Of a stretch of 64,000 nucleotides of DNA, positions 14,375 through 64,000 are shown piece after piece. The stretch is from Loxodes magnus (taxonomy: Eukaryota > Ciliophora > Karyorelictea > Loxodida > Loxodidae), in NCBI GenBank assembly GCA_946699065.1, contig CAMPDV010001985.1, positions 1-64,000 of the forward strand. Direction: 5' to 3'. The stretch's first letter is position 1. Every line of letters starts with the position of its first letter. The translations under genes and the position numbers were made by a program. Below the pieces are notes generated by a model. It was not told the origin of the DNA. It searched no databases and saw only the letters and a program-made list of their open reading frames with translations.

Positions 14375-14570
14375 AGTAGTATAACAGTATAACTGTATAA
14401 TAAAATTATAAATTAGTATTATAACAGTATAACAGCATAACAGTATATCAGTATAACTTTATAACTGTATAATTTTATATATAGTATTATAGATTAGTAT
14501 TATAACAATATAACTGTATAACAGTATAACAGTATAATAGTATAGTAGATTAGTAGTATATAGTAGTATA
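14375..14570. repeat. TATAAC/AGTATAACTG microsatellite, unit A
   Basis: Imperfect tandem 8-10-bp units (AGTATAAC, CTGTATAA) follow the 3' end of the WD40 gene. Equivalent tracts lie at 58824-58945 (B) and 41103-41285 (C) with different lengths and unit order. Confidence 0.8.
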
Positions 14571-14649: not shown

Positions 14650-17238
14650 TCATCTCATAATTCTATTAAAGTCCTACTCACTCATCTATATGTTGCTTAC
14701 TTCACAATCACTCAATCTCATTCCATAGGGAGCATATACACTATTCCAATCCAACTACTTTATTATTAAAATATCTAAATTGACACCTACCTATCCCACA
14801 GATTCATCAACACTTAACAACCTCTATACATTCCATCTTCTCAAGTAGCCATTACCATCCCCAGAATAGATCCATCTCGAATCCTTTGATAATGCCAAGG
14901 AAAATATTGGATAGTTGTGACCACTCAAAGTTAATACACACTAACCAGATGAAAAAGACCATATCTTTATGGTTGAGTCAACAGATGCTGATATGATATA
15001 TCTAGAGTCATTGGAGATTACTACCGAGGTAATATCAGAAGTATGTCCCTTTAAAGTTCTCAGGAGAGTACCATTAGAGAAATTTCAAATCTTTATGGTT
15101 TTGTCATCAGATGCTGATACTATATATCTAGAGTCATAGGAGATTACTACCGAGGTAACAGAATCAGTATGTCCGGATAAAGTTTTAACACAGGAACTAG
15201 ATAAAAAATCCCAAAATGAACTTTCGAACTTTCATATCTTAATTGTTTTGTCATCAGATGCTGATATGATATATCTAGAGTCCAAGGAGACTACTACCGA
15301 AGAAATAAAAGAAGTATGTCCCTCTAAAGTTCTCAGGAGAGTACCATTAGAGAAATTTCAAATCTTTATGGTTTTGTCACGAGATGCTGATATGATATAT
15401 CTAGAGTCATAGGAGATTACTACCGAAGAAATAGTATCAGTATGTCCCTTTAAAGTTCTAAGGAGAGTACCATCAGGGAAATTTCAGATCTTTATGGTTG
15501 AGTCAGGTGATGCTGATACGATATATCTAGAGTCATAGGAGATTACTACCGATCTAACAATTTCAGTATGTCCGGATAAAGTATTGATTAAAGCAGATGT
15601 TTAATAATCTCAGATCTTAATTTTTTTATCCCATGAACCAGTGATGATGTATTGATTGTCAGGAGAGATAGCTATTGACTCGATGCATTTGGAATGACAA
15701 TTAAGTTTATGAGGATACTCAGTTGTTATATCGGATAGATCAGCATTACTCAATACACAACCGATAAACTTAGTGTTTCTTAAATTACATTGATGGAAAC
15801 TTGAATTGGAGAAATCACATTCAGTAAATGTCATGTCCGATAGATCTGCTTACACTAATCTCATGTCGGAGAAATTTTATTATGATGCAAACTTAACATT
15901 CAGGTAGTTAAGTATCGTTATCACATTCGATGATACCTACGATACTTCCTATGATTTCCTAGATAACTCTAACACCTAATTTAATTTATTAGCCAGTTAT
16001 TAGTTAGATACCTTAGATAATTATAATAAGACTGAGGTCTAAAAGGTTAAGCTTGAGTGATTTAAAGGATGTTACTTCAAATATTAGATATCGATACTTT
16101 GTTATTGTATTAGTTGATCTAAGATTTGAATTAACTATTCGAACGTTAAGGTATTGAAATTCACTAAGGCTTATTTTATCAAGTTAGGTTATTCTTAAAG
16201 TTATTGAACTTAAAAGTTCTATTACTCTAACTAAAGTTCAATAATATGTTGAAGTAACTGTTAATCATCACTTAAAGCAGAATTTGAAACTTCTTGGCAT
16301 ATTTTAAACTGAGATTTGTCTTTTTACATTAGTTACTCTTAAACTTATTATTTGTCTTAACTTTAGTGTCTTAGGGAGGCTTAGTCTTAATATAAGTATT
16401 ATAATTATTGGCTTTCCTATATTTCATATTATTGAAGATCATAAACTTGTTCTTGTTGGGACAACTTTTATTATTATTGACCTTGACATAAACCACTTAT
16501 TACATTTTATTAACTGAAATAAGATTCTATTAACTAACAAGCTTTTTAATAAGTTAATATCTAACCCTATGAATGATCTCTCAGAAAATTGAAGACATTT
16601 AAGAGATAATACTGAATATTGTATCGCAAACCTTAATCATTCAAATTTAAATTCTATTCTTACTTTATCAAATTGATTTCTCTTAAGATATCCGTAAATT
16701 ATTACTATTATTCTTATAGCTAATACTGATTTGCCTGCTGCTGGTGGATATGCTAGCGCTATTACTATTATTGAATATTGAGTTCCGATAATCGATTCAG
16801 TAAACTCTTAATCTTATTCACTCTTTAAGAATATTATTCTATCAAGATCTTGAATATTCATTTAATTGCTTACTGGCAGATATTATTCCACTACTAACTA
16901 ACACCATTGATAACATTTCTTATAAACTATAGCTAATCTTATTTCTAATTCTATTATTCCTATAACCAATCGAGTTATTGATTTAACCATACTTAATCCA
17001 ATGCACGAGGTTGTTGAGGCAACAAAAATTATATTGGTTATTGTACCATATAGTTTTGTAGATCCTAAGGACTTATAATAAAAGTTTGCTGGTGATTTAT
17101 ACAATATACCATTCTCGTAAGCTGATATATGGCACTTAGACAGTTGAAACATTAAACACAGTTGCAAGGAAGATGCTTGGCTTAAAACTAACCTTAATCG
17201 AAAGCATTTCTACAGTTAGGACACTGTTACATATCCAT
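14650..17238 (-). CDS. RING / coiled-coil / pentapeptide / WD40 protein, copy A
   Basis: One continuous frame of 863 codons runs from ATG 17238 to TGA 14650-14652 when TAA/TAG=Gln and internal TGA=Trp. Domains: a RING-like zinc finger at residues 6-49 (CPNC, then LPCNCVQCFNCL, then CINH: C-x2-C, C-x-C, C-x2-C, C-x2-H); a Gln-rich coiled-coil part to about 440; pentapeptide-like repeats around 455-505 (ADLSD, CDFSN, CNLRN, NADLSD); and seven WD40 blades from about 515 to 808, with a conserved 55-residue tail. Blade Trp is usually TGA ('KIW-NF'). A RING plus WD40 suggests a ubiquitin ligase with a ligand-binding propeller; this is inference. It lies about 240 nt downstream of an SSU rRNA 5' fragment on the same strand. 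Compared with copy B, the variable blade positions differ strongly. The terminal TGA is conserved in B. Confidence 0.85.
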
Positions 17239-17474
17239 TTATAAAAAATAAAATTAGTTTTAGTATTTAGAAACTAATTACAATGAAATAAAAATTAAAA
17301 TATTTAAAATTTAATTATTAAATTTAATTTATTAATAAAATACAAACTAATAAAGAAGAATTTCTCTTAAAAAATGAGGAAGAAGAGATGGTTTATACCC
17401 AAAATATAGGGGCCAAATCATAAAAGATGGGCTCTCCTATCAAAAATTCGTAAAGAGAAAAATAACTTTAGATA

Positions 17475-17554
17475 AGAGACACTGAATCTCCAATCATCGA
17501 GACGAAGCCCAGTGTCGTTATTTATTGCCTCATTTAGACAGGATCAACCAGATT
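17475..17554 (-). pseudogene. SSU rRNA 5' remnant with internal deletion (unit A)
   Basis: Read on the minus strand, the first ~17 nt of SSU rRNA (CTGGTTGATCCTG) are joined directly to sequence around SSU position ~400 (AATAAATAACGACACTGGGC, then TTCGTCTCGATGATTG). Unit B keeps the 347 bp missing here. The deletion lies between two CAGGAT direct repeats (61926-61931 and 62273-62278 in B), one of which remains in A. Confidence 0.85.
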
Positions 17555-18351
17555 TATACTTTTCTATTTCCATCCACTTTTTCTATTTCCATCCACTTTT
17601 TCTATATACTCCTTTCCTCCCCCGTCATTTATGTTTCATAAAACTACCCTTCAAATATCCATACTACAGCCCACCTTTTACCCCTACTTGTCTTAAAAAA
17701 TATACACTAAACCACTATAGACATCAAGATCTTCTTTTTACCTTCTTAGTCATTCTTCATTTCTTATATATGCCTTTCTCAATTTTTAGATTCATGCCTT
17801 TGTCACACATAACTCATTCATCAAAGTCATCATTTTAAGCTTACAAGTCTCTTTTCTACTTTTTATCTACTTATATTGAATCTTCTTTTCTCAAACGGAA
17901 GCACTTAAAGTGCTTAATACTTAAGTATCATCTTCTTCGTTCCATTCTTCATCTATCAAAACTTTTTCTTTTGCTTTCTCTTTTTTCAAATTTGAAAAAA
18001 TTTGAAATTTTCACTTCCTTTAGAGTCCAAGAAATCTTCTTATTCATACTTTTTACTTTTCTTTTCATTCTTTTATCTCTATCCTTCTACTATTGATTAG
18101 CACTTAAAAATTCATCTCTTCTTCATCATCATTAGATAGTCAAGCGTCAATACCTTTTCAAGTTGGGTCTTTAGCAGCTTTTATTTCAAATTTTCAAAAA
18201 TTTGAAATTTTGTACTTAATAATCAAAGTAAGTTAAAGTAAGTAAAACCCCAGCAGAGATAGTAATGAGAATCTCGATGTAAAATCCTAGATAGATGATA
18301 CAAAGATAAGTAACTAAAGGAAAAACTAGGTACTACTCGGTACAACTAGGT
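17555..18351 (-). promoter_or_regulatory. rDNA-type spacer between truncated LSU and SSU 5' piece
   Basis: This pyrimidine-rich 0.8-kb sequence is shared with 62290-63124 of unit B. It sits upstream of the SSU 5' end, where the rDNA spacer and promoter normally lie. It contains two near-palindromes built on AAATTTGAAA/TTTGAAATTT (about 17987-18016 and 18186-18215) and GGTAC-containing short repeats next to the LSU end (18328-18354). Promoter activity is inferred from position only. Confidence 0.5.
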
Positions 18352-18720
18352 ACGACTATGAGCGGTTTCTGTCCGTTCTGAACTGGCCGTAGGACACCTG
18401 TGTTATCTTTTAACAGATGTGCCGCCCCAGCCAAACTCCCCACCTAACGGTTTCTCCCACCCAACTACATTGCTAGAAAGTTACTGTATGACAGGATAAG
18501 TAAAGTGATATTAGTAGTAGTATTTCAAGATCGCGGCTTCCTACTTATTCTACGCTTCCTATGCCACTCTACACTCCAGACTAGAGTAAAACTCAACAGA
18601 GTCTTCTTTCCCTGCTGATTATGCTAAGTCCGTTCCCTTGGCAGTGGCTTCGCTAGGTAGTAGATAGGGACAGTAGGAATCTTGTTAATCCATTCATGCA
18701 CGTCACTAATTAGATGACGA

Positions 18721-18757
<37 letters not shown>

Positions 18758-20580
18758 TGCCATTTACTCGTGCTTCGTTGAATCTCATCACCTTGACTTT
18801 CAGAACACTGGGCAGAAATCACATTGTGTTAACAGATCACCTTCACAATGCTTTGTTTTAATTAAACAGTCGGATTCCTCCTGCCGCTCCAGTTCTGAGG
18901 TGGCCATTCGCCGCAGGGCCGATCACCTTCGTTCATGGCGACAAAACTCCCACTTCCGTGAAAATTAAGTCAAACAATCCCTCCAGTGGAGATTTCTACC
19001 TGGCCCTCAGAGCCAATCTTTCTCCCGAAGTTACAGATCTAATTTGCCGACTTCCCTTACCTACATTATTCTATTGACTAGAGGCTGTTAACCTTGGAGA
19101 TCTGCTGCGGTATAGGTACGAATACTCCTACATATTACAAACTGCAAGCTTCATGGATCGTAGTTGGTGCTCTAGAAAAAACATAAAGTGTGCTGCTCTT
19201 CCATACATCACACCTCTCTCACTATAATGGATCCAGGCACACATGTATGTTAGACAGAAAAGACAACTCTCCCCCGACATATTGCGGCATACTGTGTCAC
19301 CACTATGTAGTAAGTACCTATGGAATATTAACCATATTCCCTTTCCCTTGTGAAGTTAGGATCGGGTGGCTCATGATCCAGTGCGGTTCTTATGAAAACC
19401 TTCTCCACTTCAGTCTTCCAAGTTGGCATTGGAATACTTGCTACTACCACCAAGATCTGCACTAATACCTGCTCCATAACTCTTCACAGAATTACTTCCA
19501 TGCAGATACTACGCCCTCCTACACCAGAGGGCAGAGTATGGGCACCCGCCTTTCGCAATTTCCATTTTCAGGGCTAGTCCATTCGGTAGGTGAGTTGTTA
19601 CACACTGCTTAGCGGGTTCTGACTTCCATGGCCACCGTTCTATTGTCTAAATGGATTAACGACTTTTCTTGCAGACGGGTTCTGTCGCCTTAACTCCATT
19701 TCAGGTTGGGCCTCATCGACAGTTCTGCTTACCAGGATTGTCCCACTAGGGACATTTATGTCATGTCACGTTCATTTATGAAACGTTACTGAACCCATTT
19801 AAAGTTTGATAATAGGAGGAAGAAGTTACTTCTCTCGAACCTCTATTCATTGGCTTTACCGGATACCACGAAAAGTTCCAGCTATCCTGAGGGAAACTTC
19901 AGAGGGAACCAACTAATAGATGTTTCGATGAGTCTTCGCCCCTATACTCAGGTCCACAGAGCGATTTGCACGTCAGCACCTACACGAACCTCCACCAGAA
20001 TTTCCCCTGGCTTCGTCCTGCCCAATCAATTTCATTTCACCTACATATTTACTTGCACAGACTCGCGATATAGCTAGATTCCTTGGACTGTGTTTCAAGA
20101 CGGGACGATCTGTCCACTATATCCTTGCAATACTTCTTTTCAAAGCTTTACTCAGATTTATTGTAGACGCACAGCTTCCTCTCCAACTATTTCAGGTCTT
20201 TTAACTCTCTTTCCAAAGTACTTTTCACTTTTCCCTCACGGTACTTGTGCACTATCGGCCTCTGGACGTATTTAGCCTTACGAGGAGTTTACCTCGCACT
20301 TTGGACAGCAATCTCAAGCTGTCTGACTCTTAGATAGTTTGGTTTCTAATCTAATTGAACCTCACGGGGTTATCACCCTCTATGACGTGTCATTCCTGAC
20401 CAATTTGGTCAATCAAACCAACACCATTCCTCCCTAACTTAGATAATTCCGAAGATTTACAAGTGGGCTTTGACCGCTCCATTCGCCGTTACTAAAGCCA
20501 TCCTTTTTAGTTTCTTTTCCTCCGCTTACTGATATGTTTAAGTTCATCGGGTTATCTTACTCCCCTCAGATCACAAATAC
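18352..20580 (-). pseudogene. LSU (25/28S) rRNA, truncated and decayed
   Basis: Minus-strand LSU from its 5' end (CCCGATGAACTTAAACATATC, AGCGGAGGAAAAGAAACTAA) to about three quarters of the gene, stopping after GTCCTACGGCCAGTTCAGAACGGACAG. Highly conserved blocks are easy to see, such as TCTCTTAAGGTAGCCAAATG and ACCCGATCC. A piece of domain II seems missing near 20010-20040, where GAAATGAAATTGATTGG is joined to GCAGGACGAAGCC. The LSU 3' quarter is absent. No intron interrupts the TTAAGGTAGC site. Many changes from the usual rRNA sequence are C-to-T or G-to-A. Apparent ORFs on the + strand here are shadows of rRNA. Confidence 0.9.
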
Positions 20581-20639: not shown

Positions 20640-20790
20640 ATGATACTGAAAGGAACATACCTTGAGTTTCCCCAAGGTGCCTGATGTGTTGGGAAATCTG
20701 ATGACTCACGAAATCCTGCAATTCGCATTGAATTTCGTGCTTCGCTGCGTCCTTCATCGACGCCAGAGCTTAGGCATCTATTGTTGGGGA
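20640..20790 (-). rRNA. 5.8S rRNA (probably non-functional copy)
   Basis: Minus-strand sequence includes GATGAAGGACGCAGCGAA, AATGCGAATTGCAG and GTGAGTCATCAGAT, the diagnostic 5.8S core. The 5' end (ACAATAGATGCCTAAGCTC) is somewhat diverged. ITS2, between this and the LSU 5' end, is only about 60-70 nt. It lies in a truncated rDNA block, so it is probably not expressed as a working rRNA. Confidence 0.85.
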
Positions 20791-20887
20791 TTTTGTTTTG
20801 TTTAGGTTTATATATTTGATAAAATGAAAAGCAGCATAAAGCTGTAAATAAATTTGATTTTTGTAATGTTTGATATTAATATTAATG
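20791..20887 (-). other. ITS1
   Basis: About 100 nt of AT-rich DNA between the SSU 3' end (GGATCATTA) and 5.8S, the expected place of a short ITS1. Confidence 0.7.
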
Positions 20888-21661
20888 ATCCATCTGCAGG
20901 TTCACCTACGGATATCTTGTTACGACTTCTCCTTCCTCTAAGTGATAAGGTTCACTTAACTTCCCATTAGTCCGAGAGGTTCACCTGATTACTCGAAATC
21001 GGAGGAACGATGGACGGTGTGTACAAAGGGCAAGGACTTAATCAGTGCAAGCTGATGACTTGCGCTTACTAGGAATTCCAAGTTGACGACCAAGAATTGC
21101 AAGGATCAATCCCAACTATGACGCAGTTGCGAGGTTGCCGGAATAGCTATACTTAGAAACTCATTGGCTGAGTTAGTGTAGCGTGCGTGCGGTCCAGGAC
21201 ATCTAAGGGCATCACAGACCTGTTATTGACTCACACTTCCTCCAACTAAAAGCTGGAAGTCCCTCTAAGAAGCCAACTTCCTCGGATAGAAAGAGTCTAT
21301 TTAGCAAGTTGAGGTCCCGTTCGTTATCAGAATTAACCAGACAGATCACTCCACCAACTAAGAACGGCCATGCACCACCACCCATAGAATCAAGAAAGAG
21401 CTCTCAATCTGCCAATCCTTATTATGTTTGGACCTGGTAAGTTTCCCTATGTTGAGTCAAATTAAGCCGCAGGTTCCACTCCTTGTGGTGCCCTTCCGTA
21501 AATTCCTTTAAGTTTCAGTCTTGCGACCATACTCTCCAGAATACAAAGACTTTGATTTCTCGGAAGGTGCCGAGGAGATTTATACGGTCTCCCCGATTCC
21601 TAGTCGGCATAATTTATGGTTAAGAGTAGGACGGTATCTGATCGTCTTGGATCCCTTAACT
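20888..21661 (-). pseudogene. SSU (18S) rRNA 3' portion, decayed
   Basis: The 3' ~770 nt of SSU rRNA lie on the minus strand, from GGGATCCAAGACGATCAGATAC to CGTAGGTGAACCTGCAGATG. Several positions in near-universal blocks are changed: the usual GTACACACCGCCCGTCGCTCC reads GTACACACCGTCCATCGTTCC, and AAGGTATCC reads AAGATATCC, all transitions. The SSU 5' half is absent here; a 5' piece lies at the other end of the rDNA block. Sequence breaks off abruptly at about 21661 into AT-rich DNA. Confidence 0.9.
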
Positions 21662-22169: not shown

Positions 22170-23584
22170 TAACATTTAGAAAATAGATGAGATTGCTAAG
22201 GGTGGCTTTAGAGTTTTTTGAAAAGCTTTACTGAAGGAAGAACATTAATAGCGATAAAGAGTTTTACAATTAAAGTTTATCTTAGGCAGCTAAGAAAGAG
22301 ATGGAATAGCAGCTATCAATACCTAAAAGATGCATCATCCTAATAGTATCTTTATATGAGTACTGTCCTTAGCTGCTGTGTTTGGTATTGGAATATCTGC
22401 CTTACAATTTATACTAGCTTATAAAATAAGCAATATATATCATAGAAAATCAGATATAACATAACCTTGGATATCGTGATATGTCTAGAGTGTATTATCG
22501 AGAAAAATATTATTCACAGATCTTAAGAGTAATAACATATTACTGGATAAGAATTTAAGAGCTAAAATAACAGGTTTTAATTTGTCGAAAGTGAGAATGG
22601 AAACTTAATCTTTCGAATCAAAAACTTAGATAGGCAACATTCGTCAGATAGCTCCTGAATTGATGTGCTTAAAGCCTAAATACAGAAATAACCAGATATT
22701 TTTGCTTTGGGAGTCATTTTTTGGGAAATTGCAACTAATTAAGTGTCCTTTTAAGAAACTGATAACTTATCTATAAGAGAGGATATAAAAGCTGGAGATA
22801 GAGAAAAAATTCCTGAGGAATTTCCTAAGGATTATTAAATTTTATTTGAAAAATTTTGGACTTAAAATTCAAATGAGAGAGCAAGTCGTGAAACTGTATA
22901 AAACTTACTATTGAGTAACTTAGAAAAAATTAAAAAATAAGCCCCAAAATAAGATCCCTAAGTAATGAAAAATTCAACTAAAATGGAAAATTTTAGAATT
23001 CCTGCATTAAAGGAAATCAAGGCTTTCACTTAACCTTTATTAATTATTAACTTGCATAAAAATAAAGTAAAGGTAAATATTTATCTTTTAGGCTAAACTT
23101 TGATGGGACACTAGGGAGGAGTTTGATCTGTAGTGATATCTGGTGATTAGATATTAATTGTATAGGCTAGTTACGATATAAACTTAAAAATATGAGAGTT
23201 TCTTGCTGGAACCTGTAAGAGAACGTTGATAGGACACTAGAATGGAGTTTTATCTGTGGCGATATCTGGTGACAAGAAACGAATTGTATCGGCAAGTGAC
23301 GATGGAACTGTAAAGATATGAGAATTTATGACTGGATAATGCATTCGAATGCTCGAAGGTCATTCATAATCTGTATTAAATGCTTAGGTAAGTAATTATT
23401 ACAGATTTATATTTTTGGATCTTACCAATCAATTAAGATATGGAATTTTAGTTTGGATGAATGTGTTTTGACTCTCTTAGGACATATAGGTTAAATAAAC
23501 TCTATAGCTCTAAGAAGAGTTAGCAAATGGATAGTATCAGGTGCTGATGACAGGTTGGTAAGAAGTTATAAGATTGCGATTTGA
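22170..23584 (+). pseudogene. TKL-like kinase fused to WD40 repeats, broken
   Basis: Kinase features appear in order but in shifting frames: EIAKGGFRV (glycine loop) at 22183, LIAIKSF (Lys), YEYCP..LVLEYLPYNLYQL (hinge), IIHR then DLKSNNILLDKN (catalytic loop, two nt missing between R and D at about 22519), KITGFNLSKV (DFG-like, reading GFN), IGNIRQIAPEL, and IFALGVIFWEI after another shift. A C-lobe stretch follows in frame (KIPEEFPKDYQILFEKFW, NERASRETVQNLL). From about 23055 WD40 blades begin (GHQGGVWSVVISGD, GHQNGVLSVAISGD, DGTVKIWEF), with one more frameshift near 23410, ending at TGA 23582-23584. Trp of KIW is TGA. The frame breaks, FTD/GFN-type changes and decay indicate a pseudogene. 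The intact ancestor would be a kinase coupled to a WD40 sensor. Confidence 0.75.
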
Positions 23585-27563: not shown

Positions 27564-28589
27564 TCAACTTGAGATTCTCCATTTTCTCACAGTGCTATCA
27601 CGAGATCCTGATATAATCCATTTATTGTCCTTACTCAATGCTATAGTTAAAATTTATTATGTATGTCCTTAGAGAGTCTATATACACTCGCCTGTGCTAA
27701 AGCTCCATATTTTGATTGTACTGTCCCATGAACCAGAAAATATAGCACTTTAATCATTGTTAAGTTGAATACTACGTATAGTTTTTGTGTGACCTGTTAT
27801 AGTTAGAATACATTATCCATTCTAAAAGTCCCATACTTTAATTGATTCATCACATGAGCCTGATAAAATATATTTATTATCAAGTGATAAAATTACCGAT
27901 CCAACCCATTTAGAGTGCCCAGTAAGAGTTCGAATAAGCTGACCAGTCTGGAAATCGCAGATCTTTATTGTTTCATCAGGTCAGTCTGAACTTGAAACAA
28001 TTTATTTCTAGTCACTTGATATTGCTACCGAGATAACTGAATCCATGTGTCCAATTAAAGTTCTCGCGCAACTTCCAGTCTGGAAATCTCAGATTTTTAT
28101 TTTTATATCTTAACTTCCCGATACAATTCATTTCTGGTCACTTGTTAATGCTACCGCGATAACTGAATCCGTATGCCCAATTAAAGTTCTCGCGCAACTT
28201 CCAGTCTGGAAATCTCAGATTTTTATTTTTATATCTTAACTTCCCGATACAATTCATTTCTGGTCACTTGTTAATGCTACCGCGATAACTGAATCCGTAT
28301 GCCCAATTAAAGTTCTCGCGCAACTTCCAGTCTGGAAATCTCAGATTTTTATCGTTGCATCTTAACCTCCCGATGCTATTCATTTCTAGTCACTCGTTAT
28401 TACTACCGAATTAACTTAATTTTTATGTCCTGTCAAAGTTCTCGTACAATTTCCATTCTAGAAATCTCAAATCTTTATCGTACCATCTCGACTTCCCGAT
28501 ACAATTCATTTTTGGTCATTTGTTATTGCTACCGAGATAACTGCATACGTATGTCCAGTCAATACTTAATCTAAACTATTAAATATTTA
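27564..28589 (-). CDS. WD40-repeat protein with recently duplicated blades
   Basis: The minus strand gives eight consecutive WD40 blades in one frame when TAA/TAG=Gln and TGA=Trp: GHTYAVISVAITND, GHKNQVNSVVITSD, two identical GHTDSVIAVALTSD blades, GHMDSVISVAISSD, GHSKWVGSVILSLD, GHTKTIRSIQLNND and GHTQQILTIALSKD. Most end KIW-DF with Trp=TGA, and DQKW also uses TGA. The frame ends at TGA 27564-27566 after VRKWRISS. The start is unclear: no in-frame ATG directly precedes blade 1, and homology to the kinase-WD40 gene (AAGGTAAATATTTA junction) suggests the 5' part is the decayed kinase upstream. The WD40 part itself has no frame break. Variation falls mainly after GH and before the SV core. Confidence 0.75.
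28081..28332 (-). repeat. perfect 126-bp tandem duplication = one WD40 blade
   Basis: 28081-28206 and 28207-28332 are identical base for base. 126 bp equals 42 codons, exactly one blade, so the frame is kept. The neighbouring blades are clearly diverged, so this duplication is recent or has been homogenised. Confidence 0.95.
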
Positions 28590-28599
28590 CCTTTAGTTT

Positions 28600-28940
28600 A
28601 ATCATACTTAATTTTGTTTACAAGCTTTTAAAAGCACAAATTTGGTAGAATTTCATATTTAAAAATAAGAATAGGAATTCTGCCAAGGGAATGCTTTTTT
28701 TGTCTTAAGATTTATCGTAAAAAAATACTTTTAGTAAATTGTATTTCTTTATCTAGCATTTTTATTTTTATAACTTGCATTATTAATCGCTTAAATATAA
28801 TAAATATTCTTATGAAAATAATGTTCCTAACTTAATTTCTATACAATTAAATATGTAAATTATTGACTTATTAATTATATTTATAGATTATTTATTTCTA
28901 AAGCATTTATTTCAAAATTCTATTTGTGTCTTAAATCTAG
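28600..28940. other. linker between kinase remnant and WD40 gene
   Basis: AT-rich DNA without a recognised motif apart from the AAGGTAAATATTTA stretch shared with the kinase-WD40 junction at about 23058. Confidence 0.35.
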
Positions 28941-30609: not shown

Positions 30610-33200
30610 GGATGGTAGTTTGTATTAATGGAGTAAGTGAAAATAGATTGGAATTAGCGCATTGCAATATGAAATTAGAACTAAATAATTAAGCATTTAA
30701 CAATTTACAAATTATTACAATATTTATATTTTTTCTATCAATGAGACTTGGCAGCATCAAGACTTTGCTCCTATATAAATTAAAGGATATAGAAGTTTTT
30801 ATAAAAACAGTGATGAAACTGAAAGAGCTGGTGGAGTTTGGTTGATTGTTAAAGATGCTGATTGGAGACAAATAGAGGATTTTATTTAATAAGATGATAG
30901 GTTTCTACTAGTAAAAATAAAGAATATTTATTTCACAACATGTTATATGCCAACAGATGAAAAACCTATATTAGTTAAAGAATAATCATATTCAAACTTA
31001 GATCTTATTCTTAATGTAGTTGGAGACTATCCTATTATATTAATGGGAGATTTGAATGCTCTTTTATAAGGTTATGGAAGTAATAATAGACATAACTTAT
31101 AAGATAATGCTTAAAGATTACAAACATTGATTGAAGAATATGATTTACAAATAATAAACGATTAAAGTTTTGATACTTTTAGAAGTAGAGCAAATTATAA
31201 AACTTATTTCAATTATTATATTATACCTAACTATCACATTAACATTAACCAATTCCCCTATTTCTCTACAAACCACTGCACTTCATACAGATCAATATTC
31301 CTAAAATTCACTACTTCAAATATCAATACAAATCCTCCAATTCTTGCTCCTAGAGTCTATTTCAACACTTATAACATTTAGAGTTTAGCTATACCAGAAC
31401 AATATAAAGCTAAATTTGAAGGATGCTTAAATTATTTTTAACTAATAGAAGAACAAAATTTAGAAACTTAATATTAGTATATTCTGCTAACTTTTAATCC
31501 TAATTGCTATTTACTACTAGGCCTACTAAATAACTAAATTACTTTACAAGATTATAATTCTTTAAATGGAAATACAAGGTTAAATAAGCCTAAGAAGATA
31601 GAGGAATAATGAACTAATCATCTTCTAAAATGTTTTAATATGCAAGAAGAATTCTAAGCCCAAGAATAAGAAACAATATGTATATGGATTCTGAAATTTT
31701 TTCTTAAGTTGTAAATAACTGAGAAGGTGGTGCTTTTAATAAGCATTCAACATTGATGTCGAAGAGATGAATAACTGTAACATAAAGCTCCTTATTAGTA
31801 AGAATTTAGTTTAACAAATTTAAAAGTAGTTAAATATACCATCAGGAAATCGGCAAATAATAAAGCATCAGGAGCAGATGATATCAAAGCCGAACTCATC
31901 AAATATGCTAGTAATGAATTTTATGAAGTATTTTAAAGATTTATGAATTATATGCTAAGAAAGCAAACAATTTCATACTAGCTCAAACAAGTTAGAATCA
32001 TTTCAGTTTATAAAAAAGGATCGAAGAGTAATTGAAAGAACTGGAGACCAAATGTGCTTATAAATATTATCCTCAAAGTTATGATAAAATAATAACTTAA
32101 AGAATTTATGGATACATTTATGAGAGTAAGATCATTCACCCTTCAGAGCAAGGATTTTCAAAGAAGAGATAAACATTACATCAAGTTTGAACTTTATAAT
32201 CAATTATTGACTTGCACAGAAGATGAGAAGGAGGAAAATATCTTCTTGCTACTCTTATAGATGTAGAAAAAACGTTCGATATCATTAGCAGAGATTTGCT
32301 ATTTGGACATTTATGTAGAATTAAGTTTCCTCTTGCACTAATAAATTATCTCGAATCATTCTAGTCTCATCTAGACGTTAGATTTATTTTAGACGGAATA
32401 TTATCAAGAAATTTGAATTATAGCAATGGGATTTTGCAAGGAAGTTCACATAATCAAGTTCTTACCATTATCTTCTATGGCATTGTAATCTTATATTTAA
32501 AGCTTAAAAAAATTTGGTTTTATAATTTGTGAGCATTTATTTGCTTCCAAAGCTTAAGCGGATGAATTTTTATTACTGTCTAATAAAGATAATATGAGTT
32601 AATTAATTTAGACCACATGTAAAGTATTTGTTTGAGTTAAATTGACTATAAATGCTGAAAAATGTGAATATATCTGCTTTAAAAGTAAGAACTAAAAACA
32701 TGAAAATTAAATAAAACTATGATTCGAGAAATAGTATCAATTTAAAAAATTAAGTACCTTTAGTTACAATTTTTAGTATGATTTGAATAAAGGCTCTATT
32801 AAATAAAACACTCTGAAATTTGCATTTGAGGAGAATAAGATACCTATTAACATATTTCTTAGTGTGAAGCTCTGCAAGATTTAATAGAAGAATTTAATGA
32901 TTTCAGGAATTACAATTTAATTAAACCTATAAATTATAACCAAAATTACATTAATCTTAACTCCCCACTCGAAGATAACTTTAATAAATAGTTTTAAGAA
33001 TTAAATACTTTCATTAAAGTTTCTTTGCAGAAGAATTTAAATTTTAGATAAAAATGACAATCAAGTGTAAGAATTATTGGAATAATAATTTTTCTAGTGA
33101 GCAAACAAAAAAGAAAATGATTAAAGAAAATTGAATAAAACTTATTTAGAAGGAAGTTGCAAAGGATTTTTGATTAGGTATATGAAATATAGTAAAAATA
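30610..33200 (+). mobile_element. LINE 1: APE endonuclease + reverse transcriptase, broken
   Basis: A non-LTR retrotransposon relic. The endonuclease part (30614-31300) reads NGVSENRLELAH, then INETW (about 30735-30755), AGGVWLIVKD, TTCYMPTD and ILMGDLNALLQG (about 31036-31060). The usual SDH near its end reads STNH. The RT part (31770-32700) reads SANNKASGADDIKAELIKY, VYKKGSKSNWKNWRP, IHPSEQGFSKKRQTLHQVW, ATLIDVEKTFDIISRD, NGILQGSS and AQADEFLLLS (the YADD box with two changes), then INAEKCEYICFKS. Frames shift near 30730, 32130 and 32470. TGA is read as Trp in HQVW. No ORF1 or poly-A end could be delimited. Confidence 0.8.
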
Positions 33201-38740: not shown

Positions 38741-38885
38741 TATTATTATAAACAAACCTTTTGAAGATCTCTACTATCAATTTGAAATAATTAAAAATTT
38801 TAAATTTAATAATTTAATTTTTAATATTTTTATTTTTATTTCATTATAATTAGTTTCTATAAAATAAAGCAAGTTTTGTTTCCAA

Positions 38886-41059
38886 ATGGATATGTAACAG
38901 TGTCTTAACTGTAGAAATGCTTTCGATTAAGGTTAGTTTTAACCTAAATCACTTCCTTGCAACTGTTTTTTTGTTTCAAATGTCTGAGTGCCATATATCA
39001 GTTTACAAGAATGATCGTATGTAGGAATCACCACCAAAGCTTTATTATTAGTCCTTAGGATTTACAAAATTATATGGTTCAATAACCAATATAGCCTTAG
39101 TTGCCTCAACAGTAACAAGCATTGGACTAAATATGGTTAAATCAATAAGTTGATTGGTTATAGGAGTAATAGAATTAGAAATAAGAGCAGCTATAGTTTA
39201 TAAGAAATGTTATCAATGGGACTAGTAAGTAGTGGAATAATATCTGCTAGTAAGCATTTAAATGAATATTTAAGATCTTGATAGAAACATATTCCTAAAG
39301 AGTTAATAGAATTAAGAATTTACTGAATCGTCTATCGGAACTCAATATTTAATAATAGTAATAACGATAGCAGATAAATCAACAAAATCAGAATTGTAAG
39401 AATATTAATAGCAATTCACAGATATACTAAGAGAAATCAATGAGATGAAGGTAGAATCTGATATTAATTTGAATGATTAAAGTTTGCGATATAATATTTA
39501 ACAATATCTCTTAAATGCCTTCAATTTTCTGAGAGATCGTTCATAGGGTTAGCTATTTACCTTATAAAAAGCCAAGTAGTTAATAGAATCTTATTTCAGC
39601 CAATCAAATGCTATAAAAGATTTATGTTAAGGTCAATAATAAAATTTGTCCAATTATTGGATCTTCAAAAATAAGAAATATAAAAAAATTAATAGAATTA
39701 ATTCTTCTTTTAAGGTTAATGTTTTTTAAGACACTAAAAATTAGACAAGTAATAAAGTCATAAGTAACAAATTTAAAAAGAGATATTACAGTTAAATTAA
39801 ATAAAGAAGTTTCTAGTATTGTTTAAAGTAATTATTAAAAGCTACTTCAATATATTATATAACTTTAAATTAAGTTTAGATCTTGTAAACTGAATAACTT
39901 TAAGAGCAACCTAGCTTGAAAAAGCAAACCTTCATAAACTTTAATAACCTTACGTACAATTAGTTAAATCAAATCTTAAACCAACTACAATAACAATCTA
40001 ATATCGATATTTAAGCTTTGAAATAATCTCCTTTAAATCACTAAAGCTTAGCACTTTCAACATCAGTCTTATTATAATTATCTTTAGGATCTAAAACAAA
40101 TCTTGCTTATAAATTAAATCAAGTGTTAGAGCTATCAAAAAAATCATAAGAAGTATCGTAGGTATCATTAAATATGATAACGATACTAAACTACATGAAT
40201 TTGTAGTTTGCTTAACAAAATTTTGTTAACATGAAATTAGTTCAAGAAGATTTATCGGACATGACATTTATTAACTGTGACTTCACCAATTCAAGTTTCC
40301 ATCAATGTAATTTACGAAATACGAAGTTTACCATTTACATTAAGCAATACTAATCTTTCTAATATTAAAGCTGAGTATCCTCATATACTATATGGTCATA
40401 CTTAATGCATCAACTCAATCACATTTTCTCCTGATATTCAATTCATCATCGCTGGTTCATGGGATAAAACAATTAAGATTTGAAATTATTAAATATCTAC
40501 CCTTATCAAAACTCTGCAAGGTCACATTTCTATTGTTACCTTGATAATTATCTCTCCAGACTCTAATTATATTGTATCATCATCTGGTGATTCAACGGTT
40601 AAGATATGAAAGCTTTAAAGTTCTTTTGGGCATTCCCTATCTACTCCATGTGTTAAAACTTTAGCAGATCACCCATCTTCAGTTAGATCTGTAGTTATCT
40701 CATTAGACTCTAACTACATTGTATCAGCATCTCGAGACAAAACTATAAAGATCTGGTCTTTCTCAACTGGTTAGTGTGTATTAGCTCTTAGTGGTAATAG
40801 ATTTTCAATATGATAGGTAGCAATATGATAGGATTGAAGATGAATCTATTCTGGAGATGGTATTGGTGAATTGAGAAGATAAAATATCTAGAGGTTAATG
40901 TATTCTAATCTATCTGGTTAATAGGTAATTAATAATTAATAATTTTTATAATTAAGTAGCTGGATTGAAATGATTTGCATGGTGATTATGGATTGAGATT
41001 GAGAAATTGCCTAACTGATAATGTTTAGTGAGTTGAATAAGAAGAGAATTATGAGTTGA
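38886..41059 (+). pseudogene. RING / pentapeptide / WD40 gene, copy C, broken
   Basis: The ATG at 38886 and the first zinc-finger half (MDMQQCLNCRNAFDQGQF, LPCNC) match copies A and B, but the next Cys residues are lost (FFVSNV in place of VSCLNCL) and the frame changes. The pentapeptide start ATG at 40261 is out of frame with 38886. A further shift lies in the pentapeptide part near 40330. About four blades remain (SPDIQFIIAGSWDKTIKI, SPDSNYIVSSSGD, SLDSNYIVSASRD, and the degenerate last blade) against seven in A and B. Conserved TGA codons stand at the Trp positions. A TGA at 41057-41059 corresponds to the end of A and B. Confidence 0.8.
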
Positions 41060-41102
41060 GTTACTTATAAATTAATAAAATGAATAATATTAAAAATGGA
41101 AA

Positions 41103-41285
41103 TAATGATATACTACTATGTTATTATGTTACTATGCTATCATGCTACTATTTTATTATATTACTATTTTAAACTAATATTATACTAATGTACTACTATA
41201 CTAATATATGATATACTATTATACTACTATATGATATACTACTTTACTACTATATTACTTCATTACTATACTACTATATTGTAAT
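41103..41285. repeat. TACTACTATA microsatellite, unit C
   Basis: Tandem TACTA/TATTA-type short units at the position equivalent to the TATAAC tracts of units A and B, with a different unit sequence. Confidence 0.75.
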
Positions 41286-41935: not shown

Positions 41936-41990
41936 GCTCTGTGTTTTACACTATAAGACATTTTTCGAACGGACTAAATTTTTGTAAAAT
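41936..41990 (-). repeat. conserved 50-bp motif, unit C (third copy equivalent)
   Basis: Reverse complement of the motif: GTTTTACACTATAAGACATT followed by CGAACGGACTAAATTTTTG. It matches 13515 (A) and 58014 (B). Confidence 0.75.
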
Positions 41991-54159: not shown

Positions 54160-54232
54160 GGGGATCTAGCTCAAATGCTAGAGCGCTCCTTTCGCATACG
54201 AGAGGCAACGGGATCGATACCCGTGTTCTCCA
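54160..54232 (+). tRNA. tRNA-Ala (CGC), possibly decayed
   Basis: 73 nt with a D arm (GCTC...GAGC), anticodon loop TTCGCAT (anticodon CGC, Ala), an intact T arm (ACGGG-ATCGATA-CCCGT) and discriminator A, followed by TTTTTAT. The body matches the common eukaryotic tRNA-Ala. Weak points are one C-C mismatch in the anticodon stem (CTCCT/ACGAG), a T-T mismatch in the acceptor stem and a G-to-C change in the D loop. It may be a functional variant or an early relic. Confidence 0.75.
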
Positions 54233-54305: not shown

Positions 54306-54378
54306 TAAGCTTTAGCTCAGTCGGTAGAGCGCCACCCTTTTAAGCTGGTGGTCAAGGGTTCAAGTCCCTTAGTCGGCA
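54306..54378 (+). pseudogene. tRNA-Lys (UUU) relic
   Basis: The D arm (GCTCAGTCGGTAGAGC), anticodon loop CTTTTAA (anticodon TTT, Lys), T arm (AAGGG-TTCAAGT-CCCTT) and 3' strand AGTCGGCA are clear. The 5' acceptor strand (TAAGCTT) does not pair with AGTCGGC, and the anticodon stem has a C-C mismatch. It lies 73 nt after the tRNA-Ala on the same strand and is followed by TTTTTAT. Probably non-functional. Confidence 0.75.
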
Positions 54379-59036: not shown

Positions 59037-61628
59037 TCATCTCATACTTCTCTTAAAGTCCTACTCACTCATCTATATGTTGCTTACTTCACAATCACTC
59101 AATCTCATTCCATAGGGAGCATATACACTATTCCAATCCAACTACTTTATTATTAAATTATCTAAATTGACACCTACCTATCCTACAGATTCATCAACAC
59201 TTAACAACCTCTGTACATTCCATCTTCTCAAGTAGCCATATTCATCCCCAGAATAGATCCATCTCGAATCCTTTGATAATGCCAAGGAACATATTGCATG
59301 TTCGTGACCACTCAAAGTTAATACACACTAACCAGCTGAAAAAGACCATATCTTTATGGTTGAGTCAGCAGATGCTGATATGATATATCTAGAGTCAAAG
59401 GAGATTACTACCGATAAAATAGAATCAGTATGTCCCACTAAAGTTCTAAGGAGAGTACCATCAGGGAAATTTCAGATCTTTATAGTTTAGTCTTCAGAGG
59501 CTGATATGATATATCTAGAGTCATTGGATATTACTACCGATCTAATAGAAGCAGTATGTCCCTCTAAAGTTTTAACACAGGAACTAGATAAAAAATCCCA
59601 AAATGAACTTTATAACTTTCATATCTTGATTGTTTTGTCATAAGATGCTGATATGATATATCTAGAGTCATAGGAGATTACTACCGAGTAAATACGATCA
59701 GTATGTTCCTTTAATGTTCTCAGGAGAGTACCATCACTGAAATTTCAGATCTTTATGATTTTGTCTCATGATGCTGATATGATATATCTAGAGTCATAGG
59801 AGATTACTACCGATCAAATATAAGCAGTATGTCCCTCTAAAGTTCTCAGGAGAGTACCATCACGGAAATTCCAGATCTTTATGGTTTTGTCATGTGATGC
59901 TGATATGATATATCTAGAGTCAAAGGAGATTACTACCGAGTTAACTGGACGAGTATGTCCGGATAAAGTATTGATTAAGGCAGATGTTTAATAATCTCAG
60001 ATCTTAATTTTTTTATCATCTGAACCAGTGATGATATATTGATTGTCAGGAGATATAGCTATTGACTCGATGCATTTGGAATGACAATTAAGTTCATGAG
60101 GATACTCAGTTGCTATATCGGATAGATCAGCATTACTCAATACACAACCGATAAACTTAGTGTTTCTTAAATTACATTGATGGAAACTTGAATTAGAGAA
60201 ATCACATTCAGTAAATGTCATGTCCGATAGATCTGCTTACACTAATCTCATGTCGGAGAAATTTTATTATGATGCAAACTTAACATTCAGGTAGTTAAGT
60301 ATCGTTATCACATTCGATGATATCTACGATACTTTCTATGATGATCTAGATAAGTCTAACACCTAATTTAATTTATCAGCCAGTTATATATCTTATACCC
60401 TAGATAACTATAATAAGACCGATGTCTAAAAGGTTAAGCTTGAGTGATTTAAAGGATGTTACTTCAAATATTAGATATCGATACTTTGTTGTTGTTGTAG
60501 TTGGTCTAAGATTTGAATTAACTATTCGAACGTTAGAGTATTGAAATTCACTAAGGCTTATTTTATCAAGTTTGGCTGCTCTTAAAGCTATTGAACTTAA
60601 AAGTTCTATTACTCTAACTAAAGTTCAATAATATGTTGAAGTAACTGATAATCATTACTTAAAGCAGTATTAGAAACTTCTTGGCATATTTTAAACTGAG
60701 ATTAGTCTTTTTACATTAGTTACTCTTAAACTTATTATTTGTCTTAATTTTAGTGTCTTAGGAAGGCTTAGTCTTAATATAAGCATTATAATTATTGATT
60801 TTATTCAATTTCTTATTATTGAAGATCCTATAATTGTTTTTGCTGAAACTACTATTATTATTATTGACCTTGGCATAGACCACTTATTACATCTTATTAA
60901 CTGAAATAAGATTCTATTAACTACTTAGTTTTTTACTGAGTCAATATCTAACCCTTTGAATGATCTCTCAGAAAATTGAAGACATTTAAGAGATAATACT
61001 GAATATTGTATCGCAAACCTTAATCATTCAAATTTAAATTAGATTCTTACTTCATCTCATTGATCTCTCTTAAGATATCCGTAAATTACTACTATTATTC
61101 TTATAGCTAATACTGATTTGCCTGCTGCTGGTGGATATGCTAGCGCTATTACTATTATTATTAAATGTTGAGTTCCGATAATCGATTCAGTAAACTCTTA
61201 ATCTTATTCACTCTTTAAGAATATTATTCTATCAAGATCTTGAATATTCATTTAATTACCTACTAGCAGATATTATTCCACTACTAACTAACACCATTGA
61301 TAACATTTCTTATGAGCTATAACTAATCTTATTTCTAATTCTATTACTCCTATAACCAATCGAGTTATTGATTTAACCATACTTAATCCAATATTTGATG
61401 GTGCTGATGCAACTATGGCTATATTGGTTATTGTACCATGTAGTTTTGTAGATTCTAAGGCCTGATGTTAAACATCTGTTGATGATTCGTGCAAACTATC
61501 AATTACGTAAGCTGATATATGGCACTTAGACAGTTTAAACATGAAACACAGTTGCAAGGAAGTTGCTTGGCTTAAAACTAACCTTAATCAAAAGCATTTC
61601 TACAGTTAGGACACTGTTACATATCCAT
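59037..61628 (-). CDS. RING / coiled-coil / pentapeptide / WD40 protein, copy B
   Basis: 864 codons from ATG 61628 to TGA 59037-59039 in one frame (863 aa). A RING-like finger lies at residues 6-49: Cys6, 9, 25, 27, 30, 33, 46 and His49. A Gln-rich coiled coil spans about 85-440, with a TGA at codon 127 that is also present in A and C. Pentapeptide-like repeats cover about 455-505 (QADLSD, ECDFSN, QCNLRN, NADLSD). Seven WD40 blades fill about 515-808, and the tail ends QDFKRSMR. Seven internal TGA codons (127, 545, 605, 621, 628, 670, 719) are read as Trp; nine Trp codons are TGG. It is probably a cytosolic ubiquitin-ligase-like receptor (inference). The blade frameworks match copy A almost exactly, while recurring surface positions differ. 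Confidence 0.85.
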
Positions 61629-61884
61629 TTATAAAAAATAAAATTAGTTTTAGTATTTAGAAACTAATTACAATGAAATAAAAATTAAAATATTTAAAAT
61701 TTAATTATTAAATTTAATTTATTAATAAAATACAAACTAATAAAGATTAATTTCTCTTAAAAATATGAGGAAAAAAAGATGGTTTATACCCAAAATAAAG
61801 GGGGCCAAATCATAAAAGATGGACTCTCCTATCAAAAATTCGAAAAGAGAAAATAACTTTAGATAAGAGACACTGAATCTACAA
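61629..61884 (-). promoter_or_regulatory. leader between SSU 5' piece and WD40 start, unit B
   Basis: About 250 nt that is AT-rich near the ATG and GC-richer near the SSU piece (GGGCCAAATCATAAAAGATGG). It is strongly conserved with 17239-17475 of unit A; part of it is also seen before the ATG of copy C (TTTCATTATAATTAGTTTCT). It is the likely 5' leader or promoter region; no motif is proven. Confidence 0.4.
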
Positions 61885-62289
61885 TCATCGAGACGAAGCC
61901 CAGTATCGTTATTTATTGTCTCATTCAGGATTGGGTAATTTACGCGCCTGCTGCCTTCCTTAGATGTGGTCTCTCAGGCTCCGGAATTGAACCCTAATTC
62001 TCAGTTACCCATCATTAACAGGGTAGTCCAATACCATCGAAAACTGATAGGGCAGAAACTTGAATGACCCGCCATGCTTCATGGTTCTTGTGTATTATAA
62101 TTCTCACACAAACTAAATATCCAATAAACATCTTGCATGCATTCTAGAATTACTACGATTATTTAACACACAATCAAATAAACTATCACTGTTTAATGAG
62201 CCATTCACAGTTCCACGAGTAAATGCTTAAACATGCATGGCTTAGTCTTTGAGACAAACATATGACTACTGGCAGGATCAACCAGATTT
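61885..62289 (-). pseudogene. SSU rRNA 5' fragment (about 400 nt), unit B
   Basis: Minus strand: AATCTGGTTGATCCTGCCAG, TAGTCATATG, CTAAGCCATGCATG, GAATGGCTCATTAAACAG, GCGGGTCATTCAAGTTTCTG, GGTATTGGACTACC, AATTCCGGAGCCTGAGAGAC, AAGGCAGCAGGCGCGTAAAT and the GGGCTTCGTCT stretch. It stops at about SSU position 430 and passes into the WD40 gene leader. It looks well preserved as far as it goes. Confidence 0.9.
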
Positions 62290-63124
62290 ATACTTTTCTA
62301 TTTCCATCCACTTTTTCTATATACTCCTTTCCTCCCCCTTCATTTATGTTTCATAACACTACCATTCAAATATCCATACTACAGCACACCTTTTACTCCT
62401 ACTTGTCTTAAAAAATATACGCTAAACCACCACTATAGGCATCAAGATCTTTTTACCTTCTTAGCCATTCTTCATTTCTTATATATGCATTTCTCAATTT
62501 TTAGATTCACGGCTTTTTCACACGTAATTCATTCATTAAGCACATCATTTTAAGCTTACAAGTCTCTTTCTACTTTTTATCTACTTATATTGAATCTTCT
62601 TTTCTCAAACGGTAGTACTTAAAGTGCTTAATACTTAAGTATCATCATCTTCGTTCCATTCTTCATCTATCAAAACTTTTTCTCTTGCTTTCTCTTTTTT
62701 CAAATTTTCATTAATTTGAAATTTTCACTTCCTTTAGAGTCCAAGAAATCTTCTTATTAATGCTTTTTACTACTCTTTTCATTCTTTTATCTTTATCCTT
62801 CTACTATTGATTATCACTTAAAAATTCATCTCTTCTTCATCATCATTAGATAGTCAAGCGTCAATACCTTTTTAGTTTGGGTCTTTAGCAGCTTTTATTT
62901 CAAATTTTCAAAAATTTGAAATTTTGTACTTAATAATAAAAGAAACTAAAGTAAGTAAAACCCCAGCAGAGATAGTAATGAGAATCTCGATGTAAAATCC
63001 TAGATAGATGATACAAAGATAAGTAACTAAAAGAAAAACTAGGTACTACTAGATAAGATTAGGTACTATTAGGTACAACTTCTTTTTAACTAGGTACTAA
63101 TAGGTACATGTACTCGGTACAACT
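62290..63124 (-). promoter_or_regulatory. rDNA-type spacer, unit B
   Basis: Homologous to 17555-18351. It has AAATTTT/AAAATTT near-palindromes (about 62700-62727 and 62899-62925) and an expanded GGTAC-type repeat cluster at 63033-63132 (AACTAGGTACTACTAG, TTAGGTACTATTAGGTAC), longer than in A. By position it corresponds to the intergenic spacer and promoter of SSU. Confidence 0.5.
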
Positions 63125-63496
63125 AGGTACGACTGTGAGCGGTTTCTGTCAGTTCTGAGCTGGCCGTAGGACACCTGTGACATCTTTTAACAGATGTACG
63201 CCCCGGCCAAACTCCCCACCTAACGGTTTCTCCAACCCAGTTACAATACTAGAAAGCTACTGCATGACAGTATAAGTAAAGTGACATTAGTAGTAGTATT
63301 TCAAGATCGCGGCCTCCCACTTATTCTACGCCTCCCACACCGCTCTACGCGCCAGACTAGAGTCAATCTCAACAGGGTCTTCTTTCCTTGCTGATTATGC
63401 CAAGTCCGTTCCCTTGGCAATGGCATCGCTAGGTAGTAGATAGGGACAGTAGGAATCTCGTTAATCCATTCATGCACGTCACTAATTAGATGACGA

Positions 63497-63534
<38 letters not shown>

Positions 63535-64000
63535 ACCATTTATCCGTGGTTCGTTGAATCTCATCACCTTGACTTTCAGATCACTGGGCAGAAATCACGT
63601 TGTGTTAACAGATCATCTTCACAATGCTTTGTTTTAATTAAACAGTCGGATTCCTCCTGCCGCTCCAGTTCTGAGGTGGTCATTCGCCGCAGGGCCGACC
63701 ATCTTCGGTCATGGCGTCAAACTCCCACTTCCCTGAAAATTAAGTCACACAATCCCTCCAGAGACTTCTACCTGGCCCTCAGAGCCAATCTTTCTCCCGA
63801 AGTTACAGATCTAATTTACCGACTTCCCTTACCTACATTATTCTATTGACTAGAGGCTGCTAACCTTGGAGTCCTGCTGCGGTACAGGTACGAATACTCC
63901 TACATATTACATGCCACAAGTTTCATGGATCGTAGTTGATGCTCTAGAAAAAACATAAAGTTTACTACTCTTCCATGTATCACGCCTCCCTCGCCGTAAT
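63125..64000 (-). pseudogene. LSU rRNA fragment, continues past the window
   Basis: Minus-strand LSU collinear with 18352-19230 of unit A, with the same truncation point. Its sequence is closer to the usual rRNA (for example GGGAGGCGTAGAATAAGTGG, where A has changed several bases). It is called a fragment because it ends at the same internal point as A. The rest lies beyond 64000. Confidence 0.85.

Follow-up and report, generated by a model that had tools for sequence, protein, structure and literature searches.

A rDNA-linked family of WD40 propeller genes with diversified top-face residues in the ciliate Loxodes magnus, a likely recognition repertoire

The stretch of DNA that we analysed, here called the window, comprises 64,000 nucleotides of the karyorelict ciliate Loxodes magnus (assembly GCA_946699065.1, contig CAMPDV010001985.1, positions 1 to 64,000 of the forward strand). 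It contains two related genes, A and B, that encode a seven-bladed WD40 propeller behind a long N-terminal half and that lie next to fragments of ribosomal DNA (rDNA; Table 1). A first-pass annotation of the sequence had noticed that the propeller blades of the two genes differ at the same positions in every blade, and it had left the strand unstated. Both genes lie on the minus strand and are readable there with TAA and TAG as glutamine and TGA as tryptophan or as the final stop. The standard code, as well as translation table 6 or 4 alone, was rejected because TGA is found at tryptophan positions of the WD40 repeats and TAA and TAG inside glutamine runs, in a single open frame. For the macronuclear L. 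magnus assembly of 706 Mbp, table 27 with UGA as tryptophan or stop has been reported (Seah et al. 2024, PMC11441545). The alignment of A and B has 3 gap columns in 2592, whereas the spacer downstream of the two genes has 231 in 2794.

Table 1. Features of the window and their coordinates (LSU, large subunit; nt, nucleotides)
Feature	Position	Strand	Details
Gene A	14650..17238	minus	862 codons and TGA stop, table 27 reading; open throughout
Gene A, zinc-ligand (RING-like) module, residues 1-80	16999..17238	minus	C6 C9 C25 C27 C30 C33 C46 H49, invariant in 48/48 members
Gene A, Q-rich helical, presumed coiled-coil module, residues 81-452	15883..16998	minus	helix 82-162 predicted, low confidence; pN/pS 0.36
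Gene A, pentapeptide-repeat segment, residues 453-511	15706..15882	minus	Pfam Pentapeptide E 2.3e-9; pN/pS 0.22
Gene A, seven-blade WD40 propeller, residues 512-808	14815..15705	minus	126-nt blades; Pfam WD40 E 1.7e-77; blades 2-6 at 14930-15610
Gene A, proximal upstream region	17239..17338	minus	99.6% identity among 15 members over the last 100 nt before ATG; 87-98% in ten 100-nt bins further up
53-nt remnant of 18S 5′ fragment before gene A	17485..17537	minus	
LSU rRNA upstream of gene A	18200..20573	minus	model 1-2757; Rfam LSU_rRNA_eukarya, 1526 bits; 18200 is the limit of the scanned stretch
5.8S rRNA	20641..20792	minus	Rfam, 95.5 bits
18S rRNA, 3′ part	20883..21660	minus	upper boundary approximate; aligns well from about model position 985; lacks the 5′ half here; continuous alike in L132 and L133
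Gene B	59037..61628	minus	863 codons and TGA stop; same architecture as gene A
Gene B, seven-blade WD40 propeller	59202..60092	minus	
Gene B, proximal upstream region	61629..61728	minus	last bins before ATG 98-100% identical in 5 members
18S rRNA, 5′ fragment (true 18S start)	61876..62285	minus	Rfam match 4-605, well aligned to about model position 470; 247 nt before gene B ATG
LSU rRNA, 3′ part, upstream of gene B	63013..64000	minus	runs on past the window end (L132)
Broken kinase-WD40 gene	22498..23563	plus	protein kinase, then WD40; frame shifts near 22672 and before 23459; adjoins 18S 3′ part
Gene D, separate WD40 gene	27600..28650	minus	8 WD40 stretches; two blades protein-identical; 126-nt repeats with DNA identity up to 94%
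Weak endonuclease/reverse-transcriptase-like match	30695..31189	plus	under the Pfam cut-off
Copy C, pseudogene	38890..41090	plus	inverted, frame-broken, fewer blades; 76-77% identity to A/B; 56/2016 gap columns against A
Two tRNA matches	54160..54232, 54309..54378	plus	Rfam; none by ARAGORN

In the AlphaFold2 model of the gene A protein the propeller (residues 511-808) is a confident one of seven blades, with a predicted local distance difference test score (pLDDT) mostly above 85 over the blades, and confidence is low elsewhere. The blades are highly similar repeats of 42 residues, whose columns we number 1-42 with the G of the GHT motif as column 1. According to the predicted strands, columns 4, 5 and 7 are located at the d-a loop and the start of strand a, columns 23 and 25 in the b-c turn, column 13 in the a-b turn, and columns 33-34 in the c-d turn; by WD40 topology, the top face would then carry columns 4, 5, 7, 23 and 25, and the other side column 13. 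The solved structures that match the propeller model best (ranks 1-4) are WRAP designs and 2YMU, with template modelling scores to the target of 0.94 (7big) and 0.47 (the longer 2YMU chain). The N-terminal half begins with eight putative zinc ligands in the RING-like spacing C-x2-C-x15-C-x1-C-x2-C-x2-C-x12-C-x2-H. A Pfam scan of residues 1-513 with E-values up to 10 returned three pentapeptide models, LD_SV2 (E 0.0022) and UFD1_N2 (E 1.3), and no NTPase, NACHT or HET domain.

The blade letters quoted by the first-pass annotation are all correct. In blades 2-6, the residues after GHT together with the one before SVV read EIV-R, DTI-S, SFI-S, DSV-T and SDI-T in A, and RPV-N, AYI-W, DRI-Y, ASI-R and DSI-L in B; the variable residue of SASxD reads P, R, D, D, V in A and H, W, Y, E, A in B, and in blade 1 GSWD of A stands against GSDD of B. 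The tryptophan in blade 3 of B depends on the reading of TGA as tryptophan. The framework said to be shared by these blades is present with one exception, blade 4 of B, which begins EHT. At the four columns that had been singled out, the residue is changed between A and B in 19 of 20 codons, against 23 of 190 others (p = 1.7e-14). For the six columns 4, 5, 7, 13, 23 and 25 the figures are 25 of 30 codons, compared with 17 of 180 at the remaining columns (p = 1.4e-16). The ratio of nonsynonymous to synonymous substitution (dN/dS) between the two genes is 0.37 outside the propeller and 1.02 across it.

Genes A and B are part of a large family. Searched at the protein level, the assembly (705,730,643 bases) yielded at least 52 full-length genes, each matched over nearly its full length in a single open frame, with gene A as the top match. 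These genes are the best 52 of 26,776 candidates, and broken copies are thus under-represented. A pattern made from the first 38 bases of the gene has, with up to three mismatches, 241 matches in the assembly, and its reversed control has none; this figure counts gene starts, whatever fraction of them belongs to intact genes. The statistics below refer to 48 members (other members and their units carry L numbers), that is, the 52 minus L123, whose coding sequence is identical to that of L122, L131 with an extra blade, and L099 and L114, whose start our script did not match; L134-L139, added later, are excluded as well. Median pairwise divergence among members is 8.8%, and the variety of blades is large: 239 blades carry 209 distinct six-residue signatures, and 47 distinct five-blade combinations occur in 48 genes. 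The six most variable columns of the family are those in which A and B differ, even when A, B and the near-copy L117 (14 of 2589 sites differ from B) are left out. The genome is judged diploid and unphased (PMC11441545), and some copies, such as L122/L123 and B/L117, may be unmerged haplotypes. Nearly all aligned members have seven blades. Extra or apparently fewer blades in L131, L135 and L136 indicate that the number shifts occasionally, and blade 4 of A and B includes a stretch that is 7 residues longer (about 15177-15240 and 59565-59625) where L101, L108, L127, L128 and L130 have an ordinary blade. The term WD40 is absent from the main text of the L. magnus genome paper (PMC11441545). Open-licence articles in PMC yielded none that pairs Loxodes with WD40, and titles and abstract beginnings on ciliate WD40 selection, on genes within rDNA, on WD40, RING or pentapeptide proteins and on ciliate recognition yielded no report of the present family.

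The per-column comparison of all members that the first-pass annotation had proposed separates two opposite classes of site. At columns 4, 5, 7, 23 and 25 pooled, nonsynonymous change (pN) is 0.525 and synonymous change (pS) 0.166, a ratio of 3.15 (2.91-3.50), whereas the remaining framework columns of 1-32 have a ratio of 0.18 (0.16-0.20). The N-terminal residues 1-511 have a ratio of 0.36 (0.34-0.38). A dN/dS near 1 across the propeller had been named beforehand as an outcome that would speak against diversifying selection. The whole-propeller value of A and B is indeed of that size, but it averages these two classes. By column, pN and pS are 0.503 and 0.015 (column 4), 0.517 and 0.068 (5), 0.607 and 0.545 (7), 0.347 and 0.041 (13), 0.619 and 0.176 (23), and 0.381 and 0.011 (25). 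Among the eight closest pairs of members, seven differ by 7-26 residue changes and by 0-1 silent changes at the variable columns (12 and 0 for L103/L116); the closest pair, B/L117, has neither kind of change there.

The background on which these residues vary is exchanged between members. When all pairs are compared, the distances in one of five gene blocks do not correlate with those in another (Spearman -0.07 to 0.10), as would be expected from free exchange. An individual case is provided by L109 and L111, which differ at 45 of 2583 sites overall: L111, otherwise L109-like, contains a tract identical to L106 (0 of 135 sites differ), in which L109 is closest to a different gene (8 of 135). 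The ends of this tract were set from the differences between L109 and L111. Linkage between variable columns amounts to 0.128 bits within a blade as against 0.023 and 0.027 between blades. Movement of blades between positions within the propeller is not supported: of the 209 signatures just 5 occur at more than one position, exact 90-nt blade cores shared between genes lie at different blade indices in 0 of 17 cases, and insert motifs at differing positions are at most suggestive.

The family is linked to rDNA. Both genes of the window lie downstream of LSU rRNA on the same strand, and each of the 20 members that were fetched with 1.5-kb flanks (20 of 20) has LSU sequence in its upstream flank. 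Between the LSU rRNA and the gene, about 410 nt of the 18S start are present in 5 of these, and the last 53-55 nt alone in 15. In the reverse direction, we scored the best 40 of 594 LSU candidates, and from the 23 listed copies without a downstream member of the 52-gene list we took six; a gene was found at the predicted place in all six, although for L136 and L139 the sequence retrieved stops within the gene. When the starts were extended to a list of 119 (100 of the 241 start matches plus the members of the 52-gene list), at least 36 of the 40 listed LSU copies had a member 1835-2673 nt downstream, a lower bound because this list does not contain every start. A listed ATG follows the 18S 5′ fragment at a distance of 246-251 nt in at least 28 of 40 matches, or in 30 if the four approximate positions of L136-L139 are added. 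Same-strand listed neighbours are spaced by 26-33 kb in 33 of 67 cases. On the 25 contigs with several listed starts the majority strand holds 93 of 105 starts; 14 contigs are uniform and 11 have both strands. The 52-member list alone had placed all multi-member contigs (12 of 12) on a single strand, an impression that falls to 14 of 25 with more starts. The 18S gene is truncated alike on its 5′ side in all three units seen (window, L132 and L133), which suggests that between an 18S start and an 18S end lie the gene and, probably, about 20 kb of spacer. Hundreds of rRNA genes in chromosomal head-to-tail arrays have been described for L. magnus (PMC11441545). Past the stop codon, sequences diverge fast, down to 54% identity, and the high identity upstream of the ATG, together with the few gaps within genes as against those in the spacer, suggests that the gene is conserved and has a proximal control region of its own.

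A close counterpart of this pattern is in Podospora anserina, whose HNWD genes (het-d, het-e and het-r) encode NACHT-WD40 NOD-like receptors with WD40 repeats kept nearly identical through exchange within and between genes (PMC1805685). Diversifying selection is reported there at four positions, 7, 9, 25 and 27, stated to lie on the top face (PMC1805685), and these correspond by spacing to Loxodes columns 5, 7, 23 and 25, as the first-pass annotation had supposed in general terms. Seven positions given elsewhere (10, 11, 12, 14, 30, 32 and 39; PMC12222747) become columns 3, 4, 5, 7, 23, 25 and 32 when this spacing is applied to them. The Loxodes genes share near-identical 126-nt repeats, exchanged in their case between genes (uncorrelated blocks and the L106/L111 tract), and selection on the top face at the same columns plus column 4. 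They are not members of the HNWD family, because no NACHT domain was found in them; a HET match is lacking as well, and the propeller is instead preceded by the zinc-ligand, helical and pentapeptide half. HNWD comprises 10 members of strongly variable repeat number (PMC1805685), in contrast to the 241 start matches, mostly seven blades and rDNA linkage in Loxodes.

A second comparison concerns prokaryotes. Of 80 loci fetched as propeller relatives, 25 have at least six regular blades, and 21 of these have a mean blade identity of at least 55%. Like 2YMU, these cyanobacterial and other proteins share the fold and the repeat identity, and their most variable columns are 23, 5, 7, 4 and 25, the same five as in Loxodes (this is variation within proteins, not a test of selection). 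They differ in that column 13 is outside their fourteen most variable columns, and the Loxodes genes are a single, very numerous family within one genome and encode a RING-like module. The variable-face signature would thus be a known kind of propeller evolution; new here are the host, the copy number, the combination of domains, the variation at column 13 and the rDNA setting. The order of zinc module, helical region and variable binding domain also resembles that of TRIM and other RING-coiled-coil E3 ligases, which have a fast-evolving recognition domain, with the difference that Loxodes has pentapeptide repeats and WD40 in place of PRY-SPRY and a zinc module that is RING-like in spacing.

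Taken together, these features suggest that the family is likely a recognition repertoire, and we hold with moderate confidence the fuller reading, drawn from sequence, that a large propeller family with a RING-like and presumably coiled-coil N-terminus is housed in rDNA-derived units, with the propeller as sensor and the N-terminal half as output. The members are found in such units, most commonly 26-33 kb apart on the same strand. The propeller would bind varied protein partners; its top-face residues (columns 4, 5, 7, 23 and 25 of each blade) are altered by diversifying selection, with the remainder maintained through purifying selection and exchange between members. A common output, for signalling or of a ubiquitin type if it acts in a RING-like manner, would come from the N-terminal half, which may oligomerise via the presumed coiled coil. 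The data themselves establish the family, its genetic code and open frames, the selection at specific sites, the recombination among members and the link to rDNA, whereas we infer the binding of partners, the RING-like output and a purpose in the recognition of self and non-self, of pathogens or of symbionts.

Several observations weigh against this reading. The Pfam scan of the N-terminal half gave no RING match, the zinc-ligand module has a pLDDT of about 47 in the model, and its best RING match in the PDB, TRIM32, is non-significant (E 0.31). A protein search for relatives of residues 1-511 returned 7125 candidates, none at E 1e-3. Column 7 is exceptional: its silent variation is about equal to its residue variation, its four-fold diversity of 0.505 raises the pooled value of the variable columns to 0.120, and its excess of pN is visible only relative to the framework pS. 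The short C-terminal tail has a pN/pS of 1.04. Although concentrated on one propeller face, the variation extends beyond it, as column 13 (pN 0.35) varies away from the top face and columns 33-34 do so moderately (pN 0.148, or 1.04 times the framework pS). The signature shared with prokaryotes cannot tell which kind of recognition is involved. Copies C and L135 are frame-broken, the latter in the propeller, and the listed LSU copies, apart from the query itself, share 93-97% identity with that of the window; with this divergence and the broken 18S in the three units seen, the rDNA-derived units could be decaying repeats.

The first-pass annotation had spoken of recognition or allorecognition. 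A recognition-type family under diversifying selection is well supported; as regards allorecognition specifically, the sensing of pathogens, symbionts or other partners fits equally well, and the pattern alone does not point to allorecognition because the 21 prokaryotic proteins vary at the same five columns. Within the recognition repertoire, sensors directed at pathogens or symbionts, with a logic like that of TRIM proteins or NOD-like receptors, are a plausible candidate, though less likely than not: a large repertoire in a single genome would suit many targets better than one polymorphic self marker, while the present sequence data do not separate the two.

The rDNA setting may itself contribute to diversity. 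We tentatively propose, as a minority view of our own, that about one propeller gene per rDNA-derived unit, inside a broken 18S gene, forms a freely recombining pool that array recombination reshuffles and in which selection remakes the faces. Transcription from a borrowed upstream rDNA promoter is a further, weaker possibility.

The same setting allows for a selfish explanation, in which a large insertion in 18S targets rDNA and spreads with the WD40 gene as cargo or working part, the variation serving the element (e.g., to discriminate self from rivals) and not the cell. The 18S is split in all three 3′ parts seen, and its 5′ fragment keeps a nearly fixed distance from the ATG in the 28 of 40 matches with a listed start; the position in the rRNA gene is thus site-specific, as in rDNA insertion elements. 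Starts on both strands in 11 of 25 contigs would fit an element as well. R1/R2-type elements likewise interrupt the rRNA gene in several units. Unlike these, the Loxodes interruption is about 20 kb long (as deduced from unit spacing), lies in 18S and carries a WD40 gene. Among the nine spacer frames scanned (three on the plus strand at 22.3-24.3 kb, three on the minus strand at 27.5-29.5 kb and three on the plus strand at 30-33 kb) no linked transposition gene was found, the sole match of this kind being the weak one at 30695-31189. In addition, we know of no rDNA insertion element in which diversifying selection on a propeller top face is a trait. We regard a selfish element as unlikely.

Two further explanations concern the origin of the variable residues. 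One is targeted mutagenesis of the variable codons, by a mechanism like that of diversity-generating retroelements or by other hypermutation. Many bases at codon positions 1-2 of columns 4, 5, 23 and 25, with the third nearly fixed at 4, 5 and 25, would be compatible with it, as would the high silent variation at column 7. Adenine-specific mutagenesis, however, does not agree with column 25, where AAA codons nearly always retain the third A, or with column 6, where only ATT and GTT occur. Four-fold diversity is 0.0017 at column 4, 0.051 at 5, 0.074 at 13, 0.043 at 23 and 0 at 25, compared with 0.086 in the framework. A generally high local mutation rate is therefore unsuited to most variable codons, because five of the six columns are less diverse at the third base than the framework is. 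We consider mutagenesis very improbable; the codon pattern fits selection of residue changes on a homogenised background.

The other is relaxed constraint, under which top-face residues are not needed for the fold and drift. The same columns are the freest in the prokaryotic proteins, and column 7 alone has a pN about equal to its own pS. Drift predicts this equality throughout, whereas pN of the five pooled columns exceeds their own pS by the 3.15-fold given above and the framework pS 3.70-fold, and seven of the eight closest pairs have residue changes almost without silent ones; we give this explanation hardly any credence. An assembly artefact, in which unmerged haplotypes or mis-joined repeats inflate the copy number, could produce the near-identical pairs in this unphased diploid genome, but it scarcely accounts for the whole, given that the median divergence is far above HiFi error and nearly every gene has its own blade combination.

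Large hypervariable receptor repertoires have been described chiefly in animals, plants, fungi and multicellular prokaryotes. A recognition repertoire of this size in a karyorelict ciliate would show how a protist can make and keep recognition diversity, drawing on propeller residues that a fungal allorecognition family also uses yet with other domains and in an rDNA-derived setting, and a link between rDNA recombination and receptor diversity is directly testable.

A codon-periodicity scan of the spacer gave no coding signal, but it failed on the positive control of genes A and B too and is uninformative; codon-usage scans found little. Just past gene A, at about 14450-14550, lie AT-rich short-period repeats in the fastest-changing downstream 100-nt bin (pairwise identity 0.54). 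Between the two units, the stretch 38790-45279 is an inverted and partly decayed copy of the gene (copy C) with its downstream sequence. Gene D, whose blades are also highly similar to each other, possibly represents another high-identity family.

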